Below, in pieces: positions 3,114 to 15,780 of a DNA stretch of 24,513 bases. The stretch comes from a virus. The notes below the pieces were generated by a model, which saw only the letters and a program-made list of their open reading frames with translations, was not told the DNA's origin and made no database searches. The first letter of the stretch is position 1. Each line of letters starts with the position of its first letter. The translations under genes and the position numbers were made by a program. Location of the stretch: IMG/VR virus record IMGVR_UViG_3300050140_000030, positions 1-24,513 of that record; one strand, given 5' to 3'.

Positions 3114-3490
3114 GCCTGCACCTTCTCGGGTGGCATAGCATAGATACCGTATTCGCCTGGCTCAAACATGCATGGAGCATTGACGCCCTTGCAGAAGTTA
3201 TCGGGGCAGATACCGCCAAGGTCACAATCATCGCACGGATCGTCATCCTCTGCCCATTGCGGCACAGTCAATAGTGCGATTGGATCGCCACTGACCCGAC
3301 GCTCCAAAGCCGCTGCCCGCTTCTCGTAGATGGTGGCAACCTTGCGGTGCAATTGAATGTCCGCATCAGCATCATCTTTGACCAGCTCGCGGTACATACG
3401 ACATTCGTGCACGGCTTCTTTGATGCACCACGCCATCATAAGCACGAGGATCAGGATGCAGACGGCAGGAACAACCATCGCGACCATCAT
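3110..3490 (-). CDS. Membrane-anchored Cys-rich protein
   Basis: This 126-aa protein has one N-terminal transmembrane segment at about residues 3-22 (VAMVVPAVCILILVLMMAW). A charged helical middle follows, then a compact cysteine cluster near residues 86-107 (CDDC, ICPDNFC, PC). The layout suggests a membrane-tethered metal-binding or disulfide-bonded domain. It overlaps the antirepressor stop by 4 nt and ends PPEKVQA, with the same codons forming the next ribosome site. Possible roles are superinfection exclusion or another membrane function; this is not shown by sequence. Confidence 0.6.
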   Translation of the reverse strand: MMVAMVVPAVCILILVLMMAWCIKEAVHECRMYRELVKDDADADIQLHRKVATIYEKRAAALERRVSGDPIALLTVPQWAEDDDPCDDCDLGGICPDNFCKGVNAPCMFEPGEYGIYAMPPEKVQA

Positions 3491-4245
3491 GCCTGTACCC
3501 CCTGGATCAGCTGGCGGATGAAGTCGAGGCCTTTTTGAAACACGACCGTCTTGTAGTACACGTGGGTGTCTCCGGACGGATCGTTCCAGCTGCTCTCGAT
3601 GACTCGGAAGTATCCGGCGTCGACGTACCGCTGGTACGGCCGGTTGTTCTCCTGGAGGATCGACTTCTTACGAAGCAGATCAAATAGGTTCGTACGGCCG
3701 AGTCCGGGAACGGCTAGCGTCTTGGCGACCGTGCCGATGTCGGTGGTGTCGCTCGAGCTAGCCACGGTGTCAAAGAAGGCGACCTTCGGGGCCTCGAGTG
3801 CCAGCTGCACCTGCTGCTTTTCGATCTTCTCCGCCTGCTGGGCTGCCAGGTACAACGCCTGGCTGAACGTCGTCGGCACCGTGGACGATACTTGCACAGA
3901 CGGGATACTGTAGGTACCTTCCGCATGGAGTGCGGGCAGTACCGTGCTGGCAATCCATTCGCGTAGGGCGAAGGCCTTCTGCTTCCGCGATCGGATGATC
4001 AGCGTGAAGATCCCTGTCTCGGAAACGGCCGTCATGTTCTGCCGGCCGCCAGGGGTGGACATTGAAAGTGCCCCCTTTTCGTCGTCGTTCAGGCGCGCGA
4101 CTTGCGTCTTCCAGTGGGGAATGCCGAGGACTTGCGCGACGTCCTGGGCTACGAACCAGATCTTGCCCTCGATGATCGACGTCCGCACCGGCTCATGTCC
4201 GGCAAACTTGAACGTCGTGATTGCACTTGCTGTCGTTTCCTCCAT
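3487..4245 (-). CDS. Phage antirepressor, BRO-N plus KilAC domains
   Basis: The start is set at the ATG at 4245, 5-6 nt after the GGAGGC of a start-associated repeat. The longer frame to 4320 reads through that repeat. The 252-aa product has an N-terminal BRO-N domain at about residues 10-110, with characteristic IWFVAQDVAQVLGI, ETGIFTLIIRS and LREWIASTVLPAL segments. A KilAC-type (phage antirepressor C-terminal) domain follows at about 150-250 (TVAKTLAVPG, LFDLLRKKSILQ, FRVIE). Proteins of this type, such as P22 Ant and P1 Ant families, inactivate or compete with prophage repressors and switch towards lytic growth. It sits between the helicase-loader gene and the accessory operon. Confident on family; the target repressor is unknown. 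Confidence 0.88.
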   Translation of the reverse strand: MEETTASAITTFKFAGHEPVRTSIIEGKIWFVAQDVAQVLGIPHWKTQVARLNDDEKGALSMSTPGGRQNMTAVSETGIFTLIIRSRKQKAFALREWIASTVLPALHAEGTYSIPSVQVSSTVPTTFSQALYLAAQQAEKIEKQQVQLALEAPKVAFFDTVASSSDTTDIGTVAKTLAVPGLGRTNLFDLLRKKSILQENNRPYQRYVDAGYFRVIESSWNDPSGDTHVYYKTVVFQKGLDFIRQLIQGVQA

Positions 4246-4250
4246 TCCAA

Positions 4251-4267
4251 GCCTCCAAGGTCTCAGA
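4251..4267 (-). repeat. Start-associated repeat copy R1
   Basis: Minus-strand TCTGAGACCTTGGAGGC lies directly before the antirepressor ATG at 4245. Its last part, GGAGG, is the ribosome site. The upstream TCTGAGACCTT is conserved beyond what translation needs. Other copies lie before the genes starting at 7088, 8187 and 8789, with variants at 6529 and 9046. Confidence 0.8.
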
Positions 4268-4280
4268 TGTGGTGCTCGTG

Positions 4281-4940
4281 CTACATACGGCGCTGTGACT
4301 CTCCTGTCAGCGCGATCCACGTACAGGCCTCATGCCACCGGTCAGCGCAGCAGGCCAGTGCACCGCCGCGGTAGGTCTCCCAGTCGGTCGGGAGAACGTT
4401 CGTTGTGATGATCATCGGGCGTCGGTGAGTATAGCGAGCGTTGATGACACTGTAGAACGCTGATACCGCGTCCTGGTTGCCACCTTCCCGCCCAACGTCG
4501 TCCATGATGAGCAGTTGCGCTTTCGACGCCTGCATGATCGCCGCCTGTGCCCGCCGCCCGTCGTCGCCGTAGATGCAGCTCGTGAGACGGAAGAAGTCCG
4601 GGACACTCCAGGCACTCAGCCATGTGTTTGCCTCGGGCAGCTCGCCGTTCTTGAGGAAGTCCAGCCATGCCATGGTCTTCGCATACTCCAGCGCCACGTG
4701 CACGGCCGTCGTGGACTTTCCGGTGCCCTTTGGTCCCTCGATGAGGATGCTGCTGCGCGCGCCATCGGAGAAGCGGCAGAATGTGTCCACCTCGTCGAGT
4801 GCACGGCACCGCTTTGGATCCCAGAGCAGGTAGATCGAGCCCAGGGCGGGGGTCTTGCGGACAAAGTACACCAGCTGGTTCATCCAGTCGGCGAACTGCT
4901 CCCTGCGCAGGCCTACCATCTCTTCGCTGAGGTCATTCAT
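4281..4940 (-). CDS. DnaC/IstB-like AAA+ helicase-loader ATPase
   Basis: The start is taken at MNDLSEEM (4940), which has GAGG 7 nt upstream and an 8-nt overlap with the rep gene. Two earlier in-frame ATGs at 4946 and 4955 are less well placed. In the 219-aa product, Walker A is GPKGTGKST at about 69-77, Walker B is LLIMDDVG at about 143-150, a sensor-I-like IITTN is at about 177-181, and an arginine-finger-like R is near 201. Size and motifs fit DnaC/IstB-type AAA+ proteins that load the replicative helicase at a phage origin. No helicase gene is in the window, so the host DnaB may be recruited. Following directly after the winged-helix protein supports an initiator-loader pair. Confidence 0.85.
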   Translation of the reverse strand: MNDLSEEMVGLRREQFADWMNQLVYFVRKTPALGSIYLLWDPKRCRALDEVDTFCRFSDGARSSILIEGPKGTGKSTTAVHVALEYAKTMAWLDFLKNGELPEANTWLSAWSVPDFFRLTSCIYGDDGRRAQAAIMQASKAQLLIMDDVGREGGNQDAVSAFYSVINARYTHRRPMIITTNVLPTDWETYRGGALACCADRWHEACTWIALTGESQRRM

Positions 4941-6664: not shown

Positions 6665-6850
6665 TCAAGCACGTGCCTGTTCATGGATCTGCACTGGGCG
6701 CTGGCAGTATCTGCGATACAACTGCCACAGCTCTTCTGTCTCCTGGACACGCCCGTTGCGACGAGCTGCCGGGACACGCGAACGAATGACCGCCTCGAGT
6801 GCGCCCGGCGACTTCCATATTCGGCCGAGTTCAGCGTAGGTAAGGAGCAT
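6665..6850 (-). CDS. Small HTH-like protein
   Basis: A 61-aa protein beginning MLLTYAELGRIWKSPGALEAVIRS, which resembles the first helix-turn-helix of small plasmid or phage DNA-binding proteins, followed by a basic helix (ELWQLYRRYCQR). The ATG directly abuts octad array A (6851-6922) and has no purine-rich ribosome site. Translation could be coupled to the gene ending 10 nt upstream. No alternative in-frame start exists before the upstream stop codon. Confidence 0.45.
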   Translation of the reverse strand: MLLTYAELGRIWKSPGALEAVIRSRVPAARRNGRVQETEELWQLYRRYCQRPVQIHEQARA

Positions 6851-6922
6851 GTGACCACGGTCACGAGTGACTCAGTGACAACGTGACATCGGTCCTGTGG
6901 TCACAAGCGACCGAGCGACTGG
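6851..6922. repeat. Octad array A (8-bp period), candidate partition site
   Basis: Nine consecutive 8-bp units in exact register: GTGACCAC, GGTCACGA, GTGACTCA, GTGACAAC, GTGACATC, GGTCCTGT, GGTCACAA, GCGACCGA, GCGACTGG. The core GTGAC/GTCAC appears in both orientations. The array lies across the 3' end of the 75-aa gene (6861-7088) and stops at the next gene's ATG. The same unit and period occur at 8943-9006 and 10246-10293, next to the RHH-ParA genes. Confidence 0.85.
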
Positions 6923-7088
6923 TGAAATTGTTGAGCAATTGAACGGCCCTGTCGCGATCGTGGCTGCAGGCTTCGTAGAGCAGCCGGATCTCGGCGAGCA
7001 TATTGAGCAGCTGCTTGTTCTCTCGGCGCAGTCGAGCGTTCTCTACGCCCGCGGCAAATGCCGCGTCCCTATATAGGTTAGTGCGCAT
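6861..7088 (-). CDS. Coiled-coil small protein
   Basis: A 75-aa protein starting at an ATG 5-6 nt after the GGAGGC of a start-associated repeat. Residues about 15-50 form a charged, leucine-spaced helix (ENARLRRENKQLLNMLAEI), likely a coiled coil for dimerisation. The last 17 or so residues (VACDHRTDVTLSLSHS) are encoded by octad array A, so protein and DNA-site functions overlap there. Function unknown. Confidence 0.6.
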   Translation of the reverse strand: MRTNLYRDAAFAAGVENARLRRENKQLLNMLAEIRLLYEACSHDRDRAVQLLNNFTSRSVACDHRTDVTLSLSHS

Positions 7089-7093
7089 TCCGT

Positions 7094-7112
7094 GCCTCCA
7101 AGGTCTCAGATG
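7094..7112 (-). repeat. Start-associated repeat copy R2
   Basis: Minus-strand CATCTGAGACCTTGGAGGC, then ACGGA, then the ATG at 7088. It is identical to copy R1 over this stretch. Confidence 0.8.
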
Positions 7113-7133
7113 TGGGACTAGTTCGTCAAGTAG

Positions 7134-7586
7134 TTACTTCTTGCACGATTCCCGTATAACCCACCCACTTTTACCAAAATAATCACCAGACTCTATGCGC
7201 ACTTGGTATGCCGCAAAACTCTCATCAATAACAAGTGCCTTGGTTTCCGCATCCACAAGATAAAGCTGCCCGTTCGCCTCCATTTCTCCTAGTCCCAGGT
7301 AATCCTTGGCAATTGAAAGTTTTGTGCATTCGTCAAAATCGGCTTTTGTCGGACTCACGAAACCAGTGACAGTGATGATGTCTCCAACCTCAATACCAGT
7401 CGAGGCAGGTTGCGTGGTCGTTACTGGAGCAGTCGTCGGCGGTGGTGCCGAGAAACTACTGGCGCATGACCGTAGGAGTGACACGATGATAATGAAAAAG
7501 AAGAGGAACACGATGACGCCGACAATAATGGCGCCCTTTGCTACGCCCGGCGGGAGACTTTCAAGATCTTGGTGTTGTTTGTTCAT
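7134..7586 (-). CDS. Single-pass membrane protein with extracellular beta domain
   Basis: The 150-aa protein starts behind AGGAG. A transmembrane segment covers about residues 18-38 (GAIIVGVIVFLFFFIIIVSLL). A Pro/Thr-rich linker follows (about 46-62), then a beta-rich domain containing VGDIITVTGFVSP and a final FGKSGWVIRESCKK, which resembles an SH3-like or OB-like fold. The topology suggests the domain lies outside the membrane. It sits just after the XRE regulator gene in the early operon and may act in superinfection exclusion or cell-surface change during lysogeny; this role is inference. Confidence 0.65.
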   Translation of the reverse strand: MNKQHQDLESLPPGVAKGAIIVGVIVFLFFFIIIVSLLRSCASSFSAPPPTTAPVTTTQPASTGIEVGDIITVTGFVSPTKADFDECTKLSIAKDYLGLGEMEANGQLYLVDAETKALVIDESFAAYQVRIESGDYFGKSGWVIRESCKK

Positions 7587-7595
7587 TACATTCTC

Positions 7596-7793
7596 CTAGT
7601 TGGATTCCGTCAGTTCTTCCAGGCTAAGCCCGGTGAGTTTCTTCAGCTTCTGTGCATTCACCAGCGTCGGGTGCGACACGCCCTTCACCCACCTCCAGGT
7701 GGCGTTGTAACTCGTTCCCATTTCCTGCGCCAGCCACAGGACGGTCTTCCCGTTTTGTGCTAGCCAGTTCGCGATCTTGGTCTGTTTCTCCAT
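7596..7793 (-). CDS. XRE/Cro-CI family HTH regulator
   Basis: The start at 7793 is set by AGGAG 5 nt upstream. The longer frame to 7889 overlaps another gene. In the 65-aa product the helix-turn-helix is clear: IANWLAQNGKTVLWLAQEMG then SYNATWRWVKGVSHPT, ending KLKKLTGLSLEELTESN, the typical single-domain Cro/CI layout. With no effector or oligomerisation domain it resembles a Cro-like regulator or a minimal repressor. Targets are unknown; the start-associated motifs and the 8810-9045 region are candidates. Its first 170 nt overlap a longer frame in another phase (7624-8187). Confidence 0.82.
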   Translation of the reverse strand: MEKQTKIANWLAQNGKTVLWLAQEMGTSYNATWRWVKGVSHPTLVNAQKLKKLTGLSLEELTESN

Positions 7794-8187
7794 GCTTCTC
7801 CTTTCCCGCCAACTGGGCGGCCAACTTATGCAAATAACGGTTCCATGCGATGCCTTCCGTGCCGGCGCCAGGTCCGTGCTGCCCGCCACCGTCGATCACG
7901 TACCACAGACCGTCGAACCGGTTCTGCCGGCAGCGGACTGCCTGATCACGCTCCTTGCCCTCCCGCCACTCCTGGCCGGTCAGCTGGACATCCTGCAGCC
8001 GGTAGAAGTTGCGGCGCGGGATTCCGGACAGAATGCTGAAGAGCACCGTAAGAGGCTCCGCAGAACCAGCCGTGACGCTGACGACCAGGCCGATATTGCC
8101 GTCCTCGCTACTACCGTCGACGATCCGGACTTCCTGGTGCAGGTACTGTTTCCGCAACTCCATGATGTTGAACTGTTCTTTCGCCAT
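7624..8187 (-). CDS. Hypothetical protein, 3' part overlapping the XRE gene
   Basis: The ATG at 8187 follows start-associated repeat R3. The frame is open for 187 aa. Residues 1-70 look like a beta-rich domain (QEVRIVDGSSEDGNIGLVV, NFYRLQDVQLTGQEW). Residues 90-125 contain GLWYVIDGGGQHGPGAG. The last 55 or so residues are read across the XRE gene in another frame and look like shadow sequence (charged, low complexity). Either two genes truly overlap by 170 nt, or a frameshift removed an earlier stop near 7800. The N-terminal two thirds are well supported; the true C-terminus is uncertain. Confidence 0.55.
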   Translation of the reverse strand: MAKEQFNIMELRKQYLHQEVRIVDGSSEDGNIGLVVSVTAGSAEPLTVLFSILSGIPRRNFYRLQDVQLTGQEWREGKERDQAVRCRQNRFDGLWYVIDGGGQHGPGAGTEGIAWNRYLHKLAAQLAGKEKHGETDQDRELASTKREDRPVAGAGNGNELQRHLEVGEGRVAPDAGECTEAEETHRA

Positions 8188-8192
8188 GCCAA

Positions 8193-8210
8193 GCCTCCAA
8201 GGTCTCTGAT
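8193..8210 (-). repeat. Start-associated repeat copy R3
   Basis: Minus-strand ATCAGAGACCTTGGAGGC, then TTGGC, then the ATG at 8187. It has one difference (CAGAGA for CTGAGA) from R1 and R2. Confidence 0.75.
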
Positions 8211-8226
8211 GGGTTGCCCGCGTTTG

Positions 8227-8242
8227 GCCCCACGGGCGGGGC
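8227..8242 (-). other. GC-rich hairpin after the 71-aa gene
   Basis: GCCCC and GGGGC arms with a 6-nt loop lie just after the stop of the 8249-8464 gene on its transcript. There is no T tract, so it may be a pause or processing site more than a true intrinsic terminator. Confidence 0.3.
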
Positions 8243-8248
8243 AGATAA

Positions 8249-8464
8249 CTACTCTTCCTGAACGGCTACCCAGAGGTGCTCAGCTTCGATATACTCCAGG
8301 CGCGAACCATCCGTGTAGACGGCTACTTCATTGCGGTTCGCCGGGTCCGCGGCTACTGTTGCATCCTGGTCGTACCCCTCGCCATGAATCGCGAGGTTCC
8401 ACCAGTCTTGTTCTCCCTCTGGTAGTGCATTCAACCGTCTCTGTGCCTTCTCTGCGTATGTCAT
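8249..8464 (-). CDS. Hypothetical small acidic protein
   Basis: A 71-aa acidic protein behind a strong GGGAGG site. It begins MTYAEKAQRRLNALPEGEQDWW and continues with beta-like NRNEVAVYTDGSRLEYIEAEHLWVA segments. No metal motif, signal or membrane segment. Second gene of the early leftward operon. Function unknown. Confidence 0.6.
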   Translation of the reverse strand: MTYAEKAQRRLNALPEGEQDWWNLAIHGEGYDQDATVAADPANRNEVAVYTDGSRLEYIEAEHLWVAVQEE

Positions 8465-8486
8465 GTCCTTGCCTCCCTAAAGCTGA

Positions 8487-8789
8487 CTAGTGGTCTGTGA
8501 TAATTACTGGGTTGAGAGTTAGGTAGCGGTGAACCAGTTGACGAACTCCTGACTGCCCGGTGCCCAGCTCTGCGGGATAAGAGAATCTACGAGTGGTGAA
8601 GTCGACTTCGCGCTCTCCGTAGTGAACGATAACCACGACATCATAGAACTCGTCGCCAGGCACCTGCATCAAGAAATCGACGATCATGTGGGCATGTCTC
8701 GTGTGATATTTACGGCCCGGGTAGGAATCATGATAACTGCTCTGAATCCGTTTGCCTGCTGCCAGCGTGATAATTACTCTTTCTTCCAT
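8487..8789 (-). CDS. Hypothetical first gene of the leftward operon
   Basis: The start at 8789 is behind GGAGGC of start-associated repeat R4; the frame further upstream reads through that repeat. The 100-aa product is beta-rich with many Tyr and His residues (SYHDSYPGRKYHTRHAHMIV; FYDVVVIVHYGEREV). It is divergent from the RHH-ParA operon, with about 256 nt between their starts. Being first behind the leftward control region, it may be expressed early. No family recognised. Confidence 0.6.
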   Translation of the reverse strand: MEERVIITLAAGKRIQSSYHDSYPGRKYHTRHAHMIVDFLMQVPGDEFYDVVVIVHYGEREVDFTTRRFSYPAELGTGQSGVRQLVHRYLTLNPVIITDH

Positions 8790-8942
8790 CTCGAGCCTCC
8801 AAGGTCTCAGACAATTCCTGCTTGTGCCCGTAGTGTATCCACTCTGTATATATCTTCCAGCAGTCAACAGTGAAAGAACTGTGAACACTTCCCAGTATAG
8901 ACAGGATGCCGGAGCAGTCCATTACAACGCAGACATGCGAGT
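8790..8942 (-). promoter_or_regulatory. Leftward control region
   Basis: Gene-free stretch upstream of the leftward operon. On the minus strand it contains TTGACT, AT-rich GATATATACAG and GGATACACTAC, all upstream of repeat R4 at 8795-8811. No pairing of these has ideal 16-18 nt spacing, so the exact leftward promoter cannot be fixed, but the AT-rich composition and the divergent layout support one here. Confidence 0.4.
8795..8811 (-). repeat. Start-associated repeat copy R4
   Basis: Minus-strand GTCTGAGACCTTGGAGGC (last 17 nt in this interval), then TCGAG, then the ATG at 8789. The flanks differ from R1-R3, so conservation is confined to the motif. Confidence 0.78.
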
Positions 8943-9006
8943 GGTCACATGGTCGCATGCGCCCACTGTCACATCGTCACAAGGTCACTTGCGACAAAGT
9001 GACCGA
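8943..9006. repeat. Octad array B, candidate operator/centromere
   Basis: Eight consecutive 8-bp units: GGTCACAT, GGTCGCAT, GCGCCCAC, TGTCACAT, CGTCACAA, GGTCACTT, GCGACAAA, GTGACCGA. Six of the eight keep the GTCAC/GTGAC core or differ from it at one position. The array overlaps the -35 box and spacer of the rhh-parA promoter, so a bound RHH protein would repress the operon. RHH partition proteins such as ParG and omega bind short, regularly spaced boxes of this kind. Confidence 0.85.
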
Positions 9007-9017
9007 CGTGCTATACT
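8989..9017 (+). promoter_or_regulatory. Promoter of the rhh-parA-rhh operon
   Basis: TTGCGA (8989-8994), a 17-nt spacer, and TATACT (9012-9017), a good sigma70-like pair 29 nt before the first ATG. The -35 box and most of the spacer lie inside octad array B, which points to autoregulation. Confidence 0.75.
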
Positions 9018-9023
9018 TGCGCG

Positions 9024-9040
9024 GACCTTGGATTGGAGGC
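9024..9040 (+). repeat. Variant start-associated repeat R6
   Basis: GACCTTGGATTGGAGGC, then ACGTT, then the ATG at 9046. Compared with the leftward copies it carries a 5-nt insertion within the motif. It is the only copy feeding a gene start on the plus strand. Confidence 0.6.
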
Positions 9041-9045
9041 ACGTT

Positions 9046-9261
9046 ATGGCATCAGGGTTCTGTTCCAAAACCGTCCATCTCACCGATCCGATCCTCATCC
9101 AGCTCGTCGAGACCGTCGCACATGTCCGCAAGTGCAGCGTCGAGCATGTCATCAGCGACGCGGTCGCCTATCGCTACGGCAGCCAGTCGCCGATCGTCGA
9201 GGACACGCTTCCTCTGGACGACGTGCGGCTCATCACCGAAGGCGACGGCGATGCCGAATAG
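9046..9261 (+). CDS. Ribbon-helix-helix-like DNA-binding protein (first of two)
   Basis: A 71-aa protein with the ATG 5 nt after GGAGGC. Residues about 8-45 (KTVHLTDPILIQLVETVA, then CSVEHVISDAVAYRYG) match the strand-helix-helix layout of MetJ/Arc-type RHH proteins; the C-terminus is acidic. It is the first gene behind an array-covered promoter and overlaps parA by 11 nt. It probably binds octads as repressor and/or centromere adaptor. Family assignment is by pattern; which RHH protein binds which array is not known. Confidence 0.6.
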   Translation: MASGFCSKTVHLTDPILIQLVETVAHVRKCSVEHVISDAVAYRYGSQSPIVEDTLPLDDVRLITEGDGDAE

Positions 9262-10006
9262 CTGCCCGGTCATCGGCGTGGCCAACCAGAAAGGTGGAGT
9301 GGGTAAGTCCACGATCGCATTCCACCTCGCTCACTATCTGGCACAAACGAAACGCGTCCTCCTGGTGGATCTCGACCCGCAAGGGGATCTCACGGAGCTC
9401 TTCGTCGACCCCGCGGTGATCGCAGCCGACCACTGCATCATGGAGGCATTCGGCGACACCGTACCGGTGCCCCTGCCCGTCGCGCCCAACCTCGACCTCC
9501 TGGGCGCAAATATCGCACTCTCCCAGAAGGAGGCCAACAAGGATCAGGATGTGCTGCCCTCCGTCCGCTGGGCACTCTCCGAACTCCCCGGGTATGACGT
9601 CGTGGTCATCGACGTGCCCCCGACCTTGGGGCAACTCTTCGCCGCCGGCATGATCGCCTCGAGCTCGGTAGTCATCCCGGTTCTTCCGGACGCCTGGTCG
9701 GACATGGCCATCGGCGGACTGATGAAGAGCATTGTGGGCCTGCGCTTGAAGTGGAACCCCACGCTCAGCATCGTTGGCATCGTGGTCAACCAGGTGCGGA
9801 CCAACACCACCGACGACGCCGAGATGATCACTGCCATGCGCGCCCACTACAAGGAGGCCATGTTCGACACCGAGCTGCCGCTGTACGTCGCCATCAGGGG
9901 AGCGGTGAAGCGCCACATCCCGGTGTGGCGATGGCAGCCGGCGAGCAAAGCAGCCGCGGCGTACCTCGCGCTCATGGCAGAGATCGAAGGGCGAGTGTGG
10001 GCATGA
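9251..10006 (+). CDS. parA: ParA-family partition ATPase (type Ib-like)
   Basis: The start is set at the ATG at 9251, giving a 251-aa protein that begins MPNSCPVIGVANQKGGVGKS. The upstream open frame is not coding. The deviant Walker A motif is KGGVGKST at 14-21, Walker A' is LLVDLDPQGD at about 38-47, and Walker B is YDVVVIDVPP at about 113-122. It has the small size without N-terminal HTH typical of type Ib ParA, which pairs with small RHH centromere-binding proteins instead of ParB. It would move replicons along the nucleoid by ATP-dependent DNA binding. It lies between two RHH genes and arrays B and C. Presence on a phage genome suggests plasmid-like lysogeny. Confidence 0.92.
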   Translation: MPNSCPVIGVANQKGGVGKSTIAFHLAHYLAQTKRVLLVDLDPQGDLTELFVDPAVIAADHCIMEAFGDTVPVPLPVAPNLDLLGANIALSQKEANKDQDVLPSVRWALSELPGYDVVVIDVPPTLGQLFAAGMIASSSVVIPVLPDAWSDMAIGGLMKSIVGLRLKWNPTLSIVGIVVNQVRTNTTDDAEMITAMRAHYKEAMFDTELPLYVAIRGAVKRHIPVWRWQPASKAAAAYLALMAEIEGRVWA

Positions 10007-10257
10007 CCAGGCCGAAGAGTTTCCTCGAGCAGCCGGACGAACAGGGTACCGTGCAGTGCCACTTCCGCGTCCCGCCCGAGGAACGCGAGCAACTGCAGAT
10101 CTGGTGCATCAAGCGACACCGCCCGATGTCGACTTGGCTGCGGGATGCCATGCATGAGAAGTTGGCACGCGAGCTCGAGGAGTACATGCGACATCCGTCC
10201 GCGCCCGCTGAGGAGGAACCGCCGGACATCGGCAGCCTGCTCCTGCGTCACACGTGA
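10003..10257 (+). CDS. Ribbon-helix-helix centromere-binding protein candidate (second)
   Basis: An 84-aa protein whose ATG overlaps the parA stop (ATGA). Residues about 15-60 contain GTVQCHFRVPPEEREQLQIW and STWLRDAMHEKLARELEEYM, a clear strand-helix-helix pattern. The N-terminus is basic, the C-terminus acidic with Pro. Its position directly downstream of a small ParA is that of the partner protein (ParG/ParB-like) in type Ib partition operons. Its last codons lie in octad array C. Confidence 0.72.
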   Translation: MTRPKSFLEQPDEQGTVQCHFRVPPEEREQLQIWCIKRHRPMSTWLRDAMHEKLARELEEYMRHPSAPAEEEPPDIGSLLLRHT

Positions 10258-10293
10258 CCGTGCGACCGTGGTCACATGTGACACCGGTCAGTA
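10246..10293. repeat. Octad array C
   Basis: Six 8-bp units: CGTCACAC, GTGACCGT, GCGACCGT, GGTCACAT, GTGACACC, GGTCAGTA. It overlaps the end of the second RHH gene and a possible promoter. Unit and period match arrays A and B. Confidence 0.82.
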
Positions 10294-12908: not shown

Positions 12909-13250
12909 CTACAGCTCCAGTGGTTTAACAACCACTTCAACCGGCTTGGCAATGACTTCAACTGGAATAGTGTGAAGTACCAGCAACTCAGCGACTATTT
13001 CAGCAAGGTTGGCCTCTATCACTGTTTTCTGTGCTACCTTCTCCACTATTGCGGCAGCCACCTTCCCCCCAGTCTTCATCACCACGACGTCCTTATCAGG
13101 AACAACTACCCCGCCGACTGCTACGCGGAACGCTTCGATTGCGGCGTCTGTTCCGGTCACTTTCCACGTTCGGAGAGGTTCTGCTGAGATGGTGTCCAGT
13201 GAACCGACTGACAGGTCAAGGTAAGCATCAAAGCGTGCGCGTATGTACAT
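12909..13250 (-). CDS. Hypothetical Val/Lys-rich protein
   Basis: The start at 13250 (MYIRARF) follows AAAGGAAGG. The frame can also open at a TTG six codons earlier, but this overlaps the ribosome site. The 113-aa product starts with a beta-rich 50 residues (LSVGSLDTISAEPLRTWKVT) and ends in a Val/Lys/Glu-rich helix or low-complexity stretch (PVEVIAKPVEVVVKPLEL). It lies between the tail-tip gene and the lysis cassette. Function unknown; it could be a minor tail or tail-lysis linker protein. Confidence 0.55.
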   Translation of the reverse strand: MYIRARFDAYLDLSVGSLDTISAEPLRTWKVTGTDAAIEAFRVAVGGVVVPDKDVVVMKTGGKVAAAIVEKVAQKTVIEANLAEIVAELLVLHTIPVEVIAKPVEVVVKPLEL

Positions 13251-13251
13251 G

Positions 13252-15780
13252 TCACACCTTCCTTTCAAGAATATCTATCCGTCGTGTCTCTTCCTGAAGT
13301 CGTGTCATCAACGTGTCCATAGCCTGACCTACTGCTATGGTTTTGCCGTCTTGTCTGTAGTCGATTGAGCGGACAGTGAAGTTCGTGCCGTCCCCGTTGA
13401 CGGTGTCGCCCACGGAGAGGTCAGTTGCCAGCGAGACATCACGCGTGTACTGCTCTCGCGCCACGGAGACGATGGGCAGCAGTCCATCGGCGTATACTTG
13501 TGCGCCTGCTGCTGAGTTGAAGTTCTCCGCAACGACAAATGCCCTCGACCCTGTTCCGGCTCTGACAGTGGCTGGCAGAGGGTTATCGACGACGAGTACC
13601 AGTGTGTCCACGTAGTTGTCTCCAGTGAACGTGAGCGCAATCGTCTGGAGAGTCACAGGATTGCCAGTGCGGATCATCGTGTTCAGCGGCACGTCCACCG
13701 CCTCGAAGAGATTGAAGGACGAACTCCACATGAAGTAAGAAGACACCCAGCTGTAGTCATTTACTGTGGTGTAGTCGTAGACTGTGGTGTAGTCGTAGAC
13801 TGTGGTGTAGTCGTAGACTAATTGCAAAAGAGTAGCCGTCAGAACTGAGTTTGGCTGGCTACCGCCAGTTGGCACGCGTATACCGATAGAATAATCACCA
13901 TTAGGGTAAGCACTATTCGGAGGGTCATAAACACATGCAAGTAATGATGCCCCACTAGGCAATGAACTTACGGTTGCAGGACTTTGATATATCTGACCAG
14001 AACCGAGAGCAGCGACGGCGACGGCGACCCAATAAGTCCAAACATAGCCGTCATAGCCGGAATAGGAACCCCAAACGATGGTGTACTGTGTCAATGAAAC
14101 AACCTGATAATGAGATCCCGTCTGTACCTGATGCGACCCAGTCAATACCTGATGCGACCCAGTCAATACCTGATGAGAACCAGTTTGTTGATATACCTGC
14201 ACTTGAATATTGCACTGGATGCACTGAACTCCGTAGTCCGCGCCAATGAGGTACAAGTCCTTGAACTCTATCCTGACCGTCGTTACTTGGCTCCCTTGCG
14301 ATGCACTCGTAGGTACGTCAGCCTCGAAGGTGTCACCGATGGTACTGCGCCATGCGTCTTGCCAGATAACCGCTCCACCAGCATCCAAGAGGGTCACACG
14401 ATAGGAGCAGTTTGCAGTCGTGTTCCCTGTTACCGACATGACGTACTGGACAGGTGAAAGTGTGATGTTCTTCGTGAGCGTATCCGTAGAAACCGTACCA
14501 GGAGGATTAAGAACGAAGCCCGCGCCGACCTGTCCATTGAAGTAATGAGTAAACTCCAGTTTGTTGTTCGCGTCCTGCTGGAGCGAGATGAGGACAGTCG
14601 TTGCCGTAACAGGGTTCCAGCCGAATTGAACTCTGTCAAAATACTGGAACAGGGTACTCAGTCCCGCCCGTGATGCGTTCCCTACCGATTTCAACATACC
14701 CAACGCGCCACTTGGAACCGGCAACAGGGTCGTGGCTACCTGTGTGACATCTGTCACTGTGCCCGTCCAGCTGGCTGCGTTATTGAGGGTCAGGATGGTG
14801 GCGGGTGTCGGATATTGCTTGACTGTATAATGTGCCACGACTGCGTCATAGATGTCCTCGTCCCGCTGCCAAGCCGTGAGCGGGTCAATGCGTTGCATAT
14901 GATAGTCTGGTATTTGAGTACTGACGTCCAGCGGGAACACATACAGGTTGCCATTGCGAACACTTGCCTGCGCCAGAGCCTGGATCATGAGCTGTTCGAT
15001 GACATCTATGGGTGTGATGTTCATAAGTAGTTGTGGATAGGTTGCCTGTGCCAGCAGACTCGCGTTGACGATATTCAGGGAGGGTACAATCAACTTGATA
15101 GCGTCAGATGTTGCACCATAGGCTGTCTGGAGAGTCATGATTGCAGTAGTCAGGACGTACTTCTCTGTGGCATCACAGACGTACTGGTACAGGCCGTTTG
15201 CGGCGATCACTGTCTTGATGGTGAATTGGTATTGTTTGAGGCCGCGTTCCCTGACAACCGCTCCTATGGAACTACTCAGGAGCGTTGCACAGGTGAAGTC
15301 CAGTGTCGGCAGGGCAGGCAATAGTTCATCATGCAGCACCACGTCGAAGGCATCCAGCTTGGCATCAGCTGAGTACACATCTATCCCGTATTCTGTGAGT
15401 TCATAGGCCATGACGTAGGTTTTCGGAGACGTCATGGTGGTCCCAACCAAATCAGTCGTCTGAACAGAGAGGATGTGAGACCCGCGTTCCAAAGGAATGC
15501 TGACAGTGTAAACAAGAACGACAAAGTTGGCAGTAACGGTAATGTTGCCCGAGATACTTGTATCCGTTCTTGTCGCGGTTAAGACTCCATCGCTCCAACT
15601 GAGAAAGCGATAGTTGATATTCGAAACAGCCGTTACCGGTGAGCCACTATTTCCGGCATCCACGACCTGAGGAGACGCCCCCACGACAGAACCATTCGCT
15701 CCAGCCGTATAGGTCAGAGTGAACGGATTGGAGTAGAATCCTCGAAGGAAGGTATGGCGCAGGAAAGAGAGGTTATTCAT
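13252..15780 (-). CDS. Large tail-tip/hub-like protein with InlB-like and tandem repeats
   Basis: An 842-aa protein in the distal tail module. Residues about 20-90 match a divergent InlB-B/bacterial repeat (FTLTYTAGANGSVVGASPQV; NYRFLSWSDGV; ITVTANF). Residues about 110-340 look like a tail hub/Tal-type region (DAFDVVLHDELLPALPTLDF; PIDVIEQLMIQALAQASVRN). A beta-rich region follows, with two short tandem repeats at about 532-560 (TGSHQVL units) and 652-676 (VYDYTT units). The C-terminus returns to a beta-rich domain ending in a coiled coil (LMTRLQEETRRIDILERKV). It probably sits at the tail tip and contacts the host surface. The ribosome site (GGGGTGGG) is weak but close to the ATG. Confidence 0.65.
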   Translation of the reverse strand: MNNLSFLRHTFLRGFYSNPFTLTYTAGANGSVVGASPQVVDAGNSGSPVTAVSNINYRFLSWSDGVLTATRTDTSISGNITVTANFVVLVYTVSIPLERGSHILSVQTTDLVGTTMTSPKTYVMAYELTEYGIDVYSADAKLDAFDVVLHDELLPALPTLDFTCATLLSSSIGAVVRERGLKQYQFTIKTVIAANGLYQYVCDATEKYVLTTAIMTLQTAYGATSDAIKLIVPSLNIVNASLLAQATYPQLLMNITPIDVIEQLMIQALAQASVRNGNLYVFPLDVSTQIPDYHMQRIDPLTAWQRDEDIYDAVVAHYTVKQYPTPATILTLNNAASWTGTVTDVTQVATTLLPVPSGALGMLKSVGNASRAGLSTLFQYFDRVQFGWNPVTATTVLISLQQDANNKLEFTHYFNGQVGAGFVLNPPGTVSTDTLTKNITLSPVQYVMSVTGNTTANCSYRVTLLDAGGAVIWQDAWRSTIGDTFEADVPTSASQGSQVTTVRIEFKDLYLIGADYGVQCIQCNIQVQVYQQTGSHQVLTGSHQVLTGSHQVQTGSHYQVVSLTQYTIVWGSYSGYDGYVWTYWVAVAVAALGSGQIYQSPATVSSLPSGASLLACVYDPPNSAYPNGDYSIGIRVPTGGSQPNSVLTATLLQLVYDYTTVYDYTTVYDYTTVNDYSWVSSYFMWSSSFNLFEAVDVPLNTMIRTGNPVTLQTIALTFTGDNYVDTLVLVVDNPLPATVRAGTGSRAFVVAENFNSAAGAQVYADGLLPIVSVAREQYTRDVSLATDLSVGDTVNGDGTNFTVRSIDYRQDGKTIAVGQAMDTLMTRLQEETRRIDILERKV
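13751..13820 (-). repeat. 18-bp tandem repeat encoding VYDYTT units
   Basis: ACTGTGGTGTAGTCGTAG (plus strand) occurs three times without gaps (13763, 13781, 13799), preceded by a degenerate unit. It encodes a six-residue Tyr-rich unit inside the tail-tip protein. Identical DNA copies imply recent expansion or slippage. Confidence 0.85.
14102..14185 (-). repeat. 21-bp tandem repeat encoding TGSHQVL units
   Basis: Four units beginning ACCTGAT (plus strand), two of them identical (ACCTGATGCGACCCAGTCAA, then T), one with three extra bases and one diverged. The unit encodes seven residues in the tail-tip protein, about 95 residues before the VYDYTT repeat. Confidence 0.82.

Follow-up and report, generated by a model that had tools for sequence, protein, structure and literature searches.

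The window analysed here, a 24.5-kb viral contig (24,513 nt), contains three arrays of short repeats that surround a compact operon with overlapping frames (Table 1). The operon encodes, in this order, a predicted ribbon-helix-helix (RHH) protein (RHH1), a ParA, and a second predicted RHH protein (RHH2), and it was compared with its counterparts in the related records L005, L006, L007 and L179 (record G005). The preliminary description had read these genes as an RHH-ParA-RHH cassette. Pfam and PHROG secured the ParA portion of that reading, while the RHH portion leans on predicted topology, on weak Foldseek rankings and, in the case of RHH1, on a profile match that is itself weak. The identity of ParA is certain, as the protein matches Pfam AAA_31 (6e-27) and phrog_164 (3e-50) and retrieved Thermus Soj (1wcv, 4e-28) as its top PDB hit. 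KGGVGKS occupies residues ~14-20 and the Pfam match begins at residue 7, so that the sequence has the features that would be expected of a type Ib ParA, namely short length, a Walker A motif near the N-terminus and no N-terminal HTH.

The fold of the two flanking proteins is assigned with low confidence from AlphaFold topologies of modest to low confidence and from non-significant Foldseek lists. Arc/CopG proteins top the RHH1 list, none of them significantly, and RHH2, a predicted strand-helix-helix protein with no significant fold or family match, ranks weakly with AmrZ/Arc. Sequence searches of Pfam, PHROG and the PDB returned no significant RHH family for either protein, profile searches with both disclosed no further relatives, and RHH1 found no match among annotated phages. 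RHH1 does have homologues in L007 (85%) and L006 (54%), as well as a weak profile match (E=0.0035) to RHH-like partners of related ParAs. RHH2, whose gene follows parA with an ATGA overlap, starts with a tail that resembles the SKFFEQPETE of the RHH partners in three other ParA loci (L009-L011), a similarity of 8 columns with an hhalign probability of 2%. In type Ib systems, the partner is a small RHH protein encoded after parA whose N-terminal tail stimulates the ParA ATPase. We consider RHH2 a likely candidate for the centromere-binding partner of ParA.

Table 1. Features in and around the RHH1-ParA-RHH2 operon, in window positions
Feature	Positions	Strand	Description
61-aa conserved gene	6665-6850	-	ATG (6850) abuts array A; homologues 72-84% identical
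Array A	6851-6922	.	9 octads, orientation ><>>>(<)<>>; in 3' end of leftward gene
75-aa charged coiled-coil-like protein gene	6861-7088	-	Last ~20 codons are array A
65-aa HTH regulator (Cro-like)	7596-7793	-	Weak PHROG transcription-regulator matches; kept in L005, L006, L007 and L179
Leftward promoter-like site	8894-8921	-	TGGACT-16-TATACT; ~20 bp from array B; L007 sequence matches
Array B	8943-9006	.	8 octads, orientation <<.<<<>>; upstream of RHH1, overlaps operon promoter
Promoter-like site P_par	8989-9017	+	TTGCGA-17-TATACT; last two array B octads in its -35 and spacer
RHH1	9046-9261	+	71 aa, predicted ribbon-helix-helix; first operon gene; helices 15-28, 32-47
ParA	9251-10006	+	251 aa; Walker A KGGVGKS near N-terminus; without N-terminal HTH
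RHH2	10003-10257	+	84 aa; N-terminal tail KSFLEQPDE, then predicted strand-helix-helix (E17-21, H25-38, H42-63)
Array C	10246-10293	.	6 octads, orientation <>><><; starts in last RHH2 codons

The three arrays had been described as runs of 9, 8 and 6 units in mixed orientation and 8-bp register, and this held to the exact coordinate. Their octads share the core G(T/C)GAC(C/A) (GYGACM), placed in either orientation within one strict register per array; across the 23 units, core positions 3 and 5 never vary and all but one have A at position 4 (22/23). Chain scores for GTGAC/GTCAC reached 25.5, 21.5 and 19.0 at A, B and C, respectively, against a maximum of 9.5 among 60 Markov shuffles, and a scan of periods 6 to 12 returned these arrays as its sole hits, all at period 8. 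A motif-free scan at period 8 ranked A and B first and second (46.4 and 45.9; ten shuffles, 27.8-34.3), with array C, in an 8-unit frame, scoring 35.0, barely above the shuffles. The motif trained on array B alone scored A at 50.9 and C at 42.1, the next-best place in the window yielding 8.3. Neither the chain-score nor the motif-free scan uncovered a period-7 array around the cassette, and Tandem Repeats Finder recovered only a weak part of array B. It is the register that constitutes the signal. The bare hexamer GTGACC shows no strong enrichment in the window, where it occurs 24 times against 16.9 expected and 7 of 100 shuffles reach 24; hexamer density alone, not being significant, was rejected as evidence for the arrays.

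Array B stands between divergent promoter-like sites and carries the operon promoter in the window, in L007 (TTGTGA-17-TATACT) and in L006 (TTGCGC-17-TACACT). Arrays B and C had both been said to overlap promoter-like sites. The site at B passes the promoter scan, and the one at C is a sub-threshold match only. Judged by its sequence, array B, in spanning P_par, could be an upstream repeat centromere that doubles as an operator, as is typical of type Ib loci. Array A does lie within the end of a leftward gene, as proposed, about 2.0 kb from B, and the homologues of this 75-aa gene in L005, L006, L007 and L179 have an array at the 3' end in each case.

According to the preliminary description, the reading of these arrays as partition sites would fall if relatives that keep the parA operon lacked them. 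For A and B this check did not refute the reading, as both are kept, holding position and register in diverged phages, whereas array C is kept in the closer relatives L005 and L007 and missing from the more distant L006, where no clear counterpart was found. L005 is 98.9% identical to the right part of the window and diverges left of 9470. Within this diverged part, array A is 97% identical to that of the window (2/72 mismatches) against ~75% (~25% divergence) in its flanks (P=2e-7), and its 21 codons carry no synonymous change, compared with 8/36 outside (Fisher 0.04). L007 shares 76% DNA identity with the window around RHH1 and has the same unit pattern in array B, whose cores have changed less than the spacers (5/48 vs 6/16, p=0.02); its array C remains in register with an altered unit order, and its array A is degenerate. 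At the place of array A, the counterparts in L007, L006 and L179 are diverged or have a switched word. The fetched remainder of the L006 and L007 records revealed no further arrays.

In L006 (64% ParA), the two best period-8 places of the motif-free scan coincide with the A and B positions, and the word at both is TGGYSC, as opposed to GYGACM in the window. A position weight matrix built from L006 array B scored L006 array A at 38.5, with the next-best place at 9.1 and array A of the window at only 9.7; in turn, the window motifs give a weak match at L006 B and next to none at L006 A. The word has thus switched jointly in A and B with register and position unchanged, which is expected of sites read by one trans-acting protein. 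Equally, that a motif derived from B alone finds A argues for one trans-acting specificity per genome reading both arrays. The window and L007, which use the same word, have identical predicted RHH1 strands, and that of L006 is altered (SKTVHLT to SRTYHIA); RHH2 differs in all three.

Elsewhere in the window, a stereotyped leader, TGAGACCTTGGAGGC, precedes at least five leftward genes (minus strand, near 4256, 6540, 7099, 8198 and 8800), with 10 matches at two or fewer mismatches vs 1.6 expected. L006 and L179 have ACAAYCGATCTAGGAGGATCG instead and L007 is mixed, a second coordinated switch of a motif, which may be an operator or a translation signal. Tandem 18-bp and 21-bp repeats (YDYTTV, TGSHQVL) occur at 13752-13819 and 14125-14184 in a large leftward tail-like gene, and a BRO/Ant-type antirepressor (3487-4320; 68-83% in relatives) is consistent with a temperate phage.

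Not all relatives retain an intact cassette. In L007, parA is interrupted with the arrays still present. In L005, parA lacks its N-terminal part, the start being replaced at a junction in an L006-like array B. Around this point (near 2072 of L005, 9470 of the window), sequence like that of L006 on the left meets sequence like that of the window on the right inside array B/parA, either as a natural recombinant or as an assembly chimera. RHH1, parA and RHH2 are all absent from L179, which keeps array A plus one short residual array; the left flank of this empty locus corresponds to the region upstream of B and the right flank to the region after RHH2. Since these are metagenome assemblies, the broken parA genes and the empty locus may stem from chimeric joins or assembly error, and the arrays outlive ParA if the joins in L007, L005 and L179 are real. 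On the reversed L179 record (13079-13457), the gene beside array A consists of degenerate repeats (SPETRxKMSAAHTGH...) resembling the repeat regions of some HNH endonuclease proteins.

Among known systems, parABS of the cluster A mycobacteriophage RedRock comes closest. RedRock lacks an integrase and has two parS loci, each composed of eight direct 8-bp repeats that ParB is reported to recognise; plasmid stabilisation is reported for the cassette, and Miko and Rachaly possess a third parS (PMC7157519). Applied to RedRock as a positive control, our scan recovered both parS arrays (54.4 and 51.3), one before parA and the other beginning at the parB stop codon. The window resembles RedRock, Alma and Miko, whose prophages are extrachromosomal, in its temperate-phage setting, in which no integrase was found, and in encoding a small ParA followed by a small, here putative, DNA-binding partner. 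Moreover, 8-bp arrays flank these genes on both sides, B and C in our case, with the right-hand array beginning where the partner gene ends, and the extra parS loci of Miko and Rachaly and the diverse specificities of the group find parallels here. In contrast, RedRock has direct repeats of TCGAGTNN and one partner gene, whereas the window has GYGACM units in mixed orientation, two RHH genes and the distal intragenic array A. By BLASTP, RedRock ParB did not match RHH1 or RHH2, and RedRock ParA showed only weak similarity to the window ParA.

Plasmid pSM19035 (delta/omega, type Ib), a further similar system, pairs its ParA with an RHH ParB, omega, that reads contiguous short non-palindromic repeats in varied orientations, at least four of which are needed for ParA activation, at parS sites lying over promoters (PMC9499535). 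Its three promoter-overlapping parS loci act as operators and centromeres (PMC9499535, PMC5016525). The omega site is, however, a 7-bp WATCACW heptad, in place of which the window has the 8-bp GYGACM; the delta and omega genes are separate, and RHH1 and RHH2 lack a detectable sequence match to solved structures. ParF-ParG-parH of TP228 offers a further likeness in its RHH centromere protein acting as ParA partner, its upstream repeat site and its autoregulation. It differs in that parH consists of degenerate tetramer boxes separated by AT-rich spacers (PMC7308502), and we did not find a second RHH gene or a distal array described for TP228. Among the ParA loci that we fetched, L009-L012 and L018 have 9-bp-period arrays downstream of parA, beside ParA and an RHH-like partner. 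The related ParAs, the partner, the nearby in-register array and the SKFFEQP tail, akin to KSFLEQP of RHH2, bring them close to the window, from which the 9-bp period, the GTTTAC word and the location of the array beyond a downstream gene set them apart. Their units are GTTTACNNN, in direct or mixed orientation, and these arrays are likely centromeres of another phage or plasmid group. L008 (34% ParA and an RHH-like partner) yielded no array clearly above shuffles. None of the ParAs retrieved by the genome scan exceeded ~35% identity, and no host emerged from it.

Collectively, these data make it fairly probable that the locus is a RedRock-like or type Ib-like partition cassette belonging to a temperate phage that probably maintains its prophage as a plasmid, with the octad arrays as candidate binding sites of the cassette RHH protein(s) for autoregulation and segregation. 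The strict 8-bp register and mixed orientation would suit RHH binding, by analogy with known RHH systems. Each octad would be occupied by an RHH dimer, with polymerisation over the contiguous array in the manner of omega on its heptads, and RHH bound to B would repress P_par. RHH2, judged by an N-terminal tail like those of ParA partners and by the position of its gene behind parA, would couple the bound arrays to ParA, with B, C and A acting as centromere sites. RHH1, as it has no such tail, is probably an extra dedicated repressor reading the same word. Array A may be a further centromere or a roadblock or loop site in the leftward operon; looping from A to B and C and possible control of the leftward genes, both put forward in the preliminary description, are retained as proposals. 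Neither a tyrosine integrase nor a large serine recombinase was found in five related records, all of which may be fragments, so that this absence is weak evidence for a plasmid prophage.

Alternatively, the arrays could be transcriptional operators only, through which the RHH proteins, by cooperative binding and A-B looping, would control the leftward and rightward transcripts of the phage, ParA being dispensable. The situation of array B between divergent promoter-like sites and of array A inside an operon ~2 kb away would fit such a role. Arrays also persist despite the damage to parA in L007 and L005 and the absence of the cassette from L179, so that regulation may be their function, either in place of partition or alongside it. 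However, an assembly artefact could account for the broken parA, the window and L006 both retain an intact RHH-ParA-RHH operon whose frames overlap, and RedRock-type cassettes of the same layout work in partition (PMC7157519); regulation alone is a rather unlikely account. We regard as improbable that the octads are bound instead by the 65-aa HTH regulator, whose gene lies between arrays A and B. This protein is present in L179, which has arrays but neither RHH gene, and its recognition-helix region is alike in the window and L007, which share the word, and different in L006. Yet the arrays flank the RHH genes, and the HTH protein of L005 is L006-like even though array A of L005 has the window word; besides, Cro-like HTH dimers bind half sites that form palindromes with a spacing of roughly one helical turn, unlike the contiguous, non-palindromic 8-bp units placed here in either orientation. 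Very improbable is a reading of the arrays as iterons for a replication initiator or as products of the local sequence, for example of coding repeats. Plasmid origins do also contain short repeats at regular spacing, and array A is coding sequence. Against this, mixed orientation at an 8-bp spacing is not iteron-like, the silent sites of array A are conserved, B extends over a promoter and C over the operon end, and the replication loader genes (DnaC/DnaD-like) lie outside the arrays. The omega-heptad, iteron and coding-repeat readings were all rejected on period, position and silent-site conservation.

Returning to the partition cassette, its class is already known; new here are the second RHH gene before parA, the mixed orientation at 8 bp, the distal intragenic array and the joint word switch. 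In a more far-reaching and rather less probable reading, both RHH proteins recognise one and the same octad word, and word and readers would switch together across the phage population as a natural series of orthogonal centromere specificities. Such a series might be lost when the cassette is excised and the arrays are left, the leftover arrays perhaps being served in trans, causing incompatibility with related prophages or acting as decoys for them. The locus extends 8-bp-array partition cassettes of plasmid prophages, known from mycobacteriophages, to an unrelated group of uncultured phages. It also offers a natural specificity experiment, with two words at identical positions and in the same register, so that the RHH recognition code and partition incompatibility become testable by swapping RHH genes and arrays.
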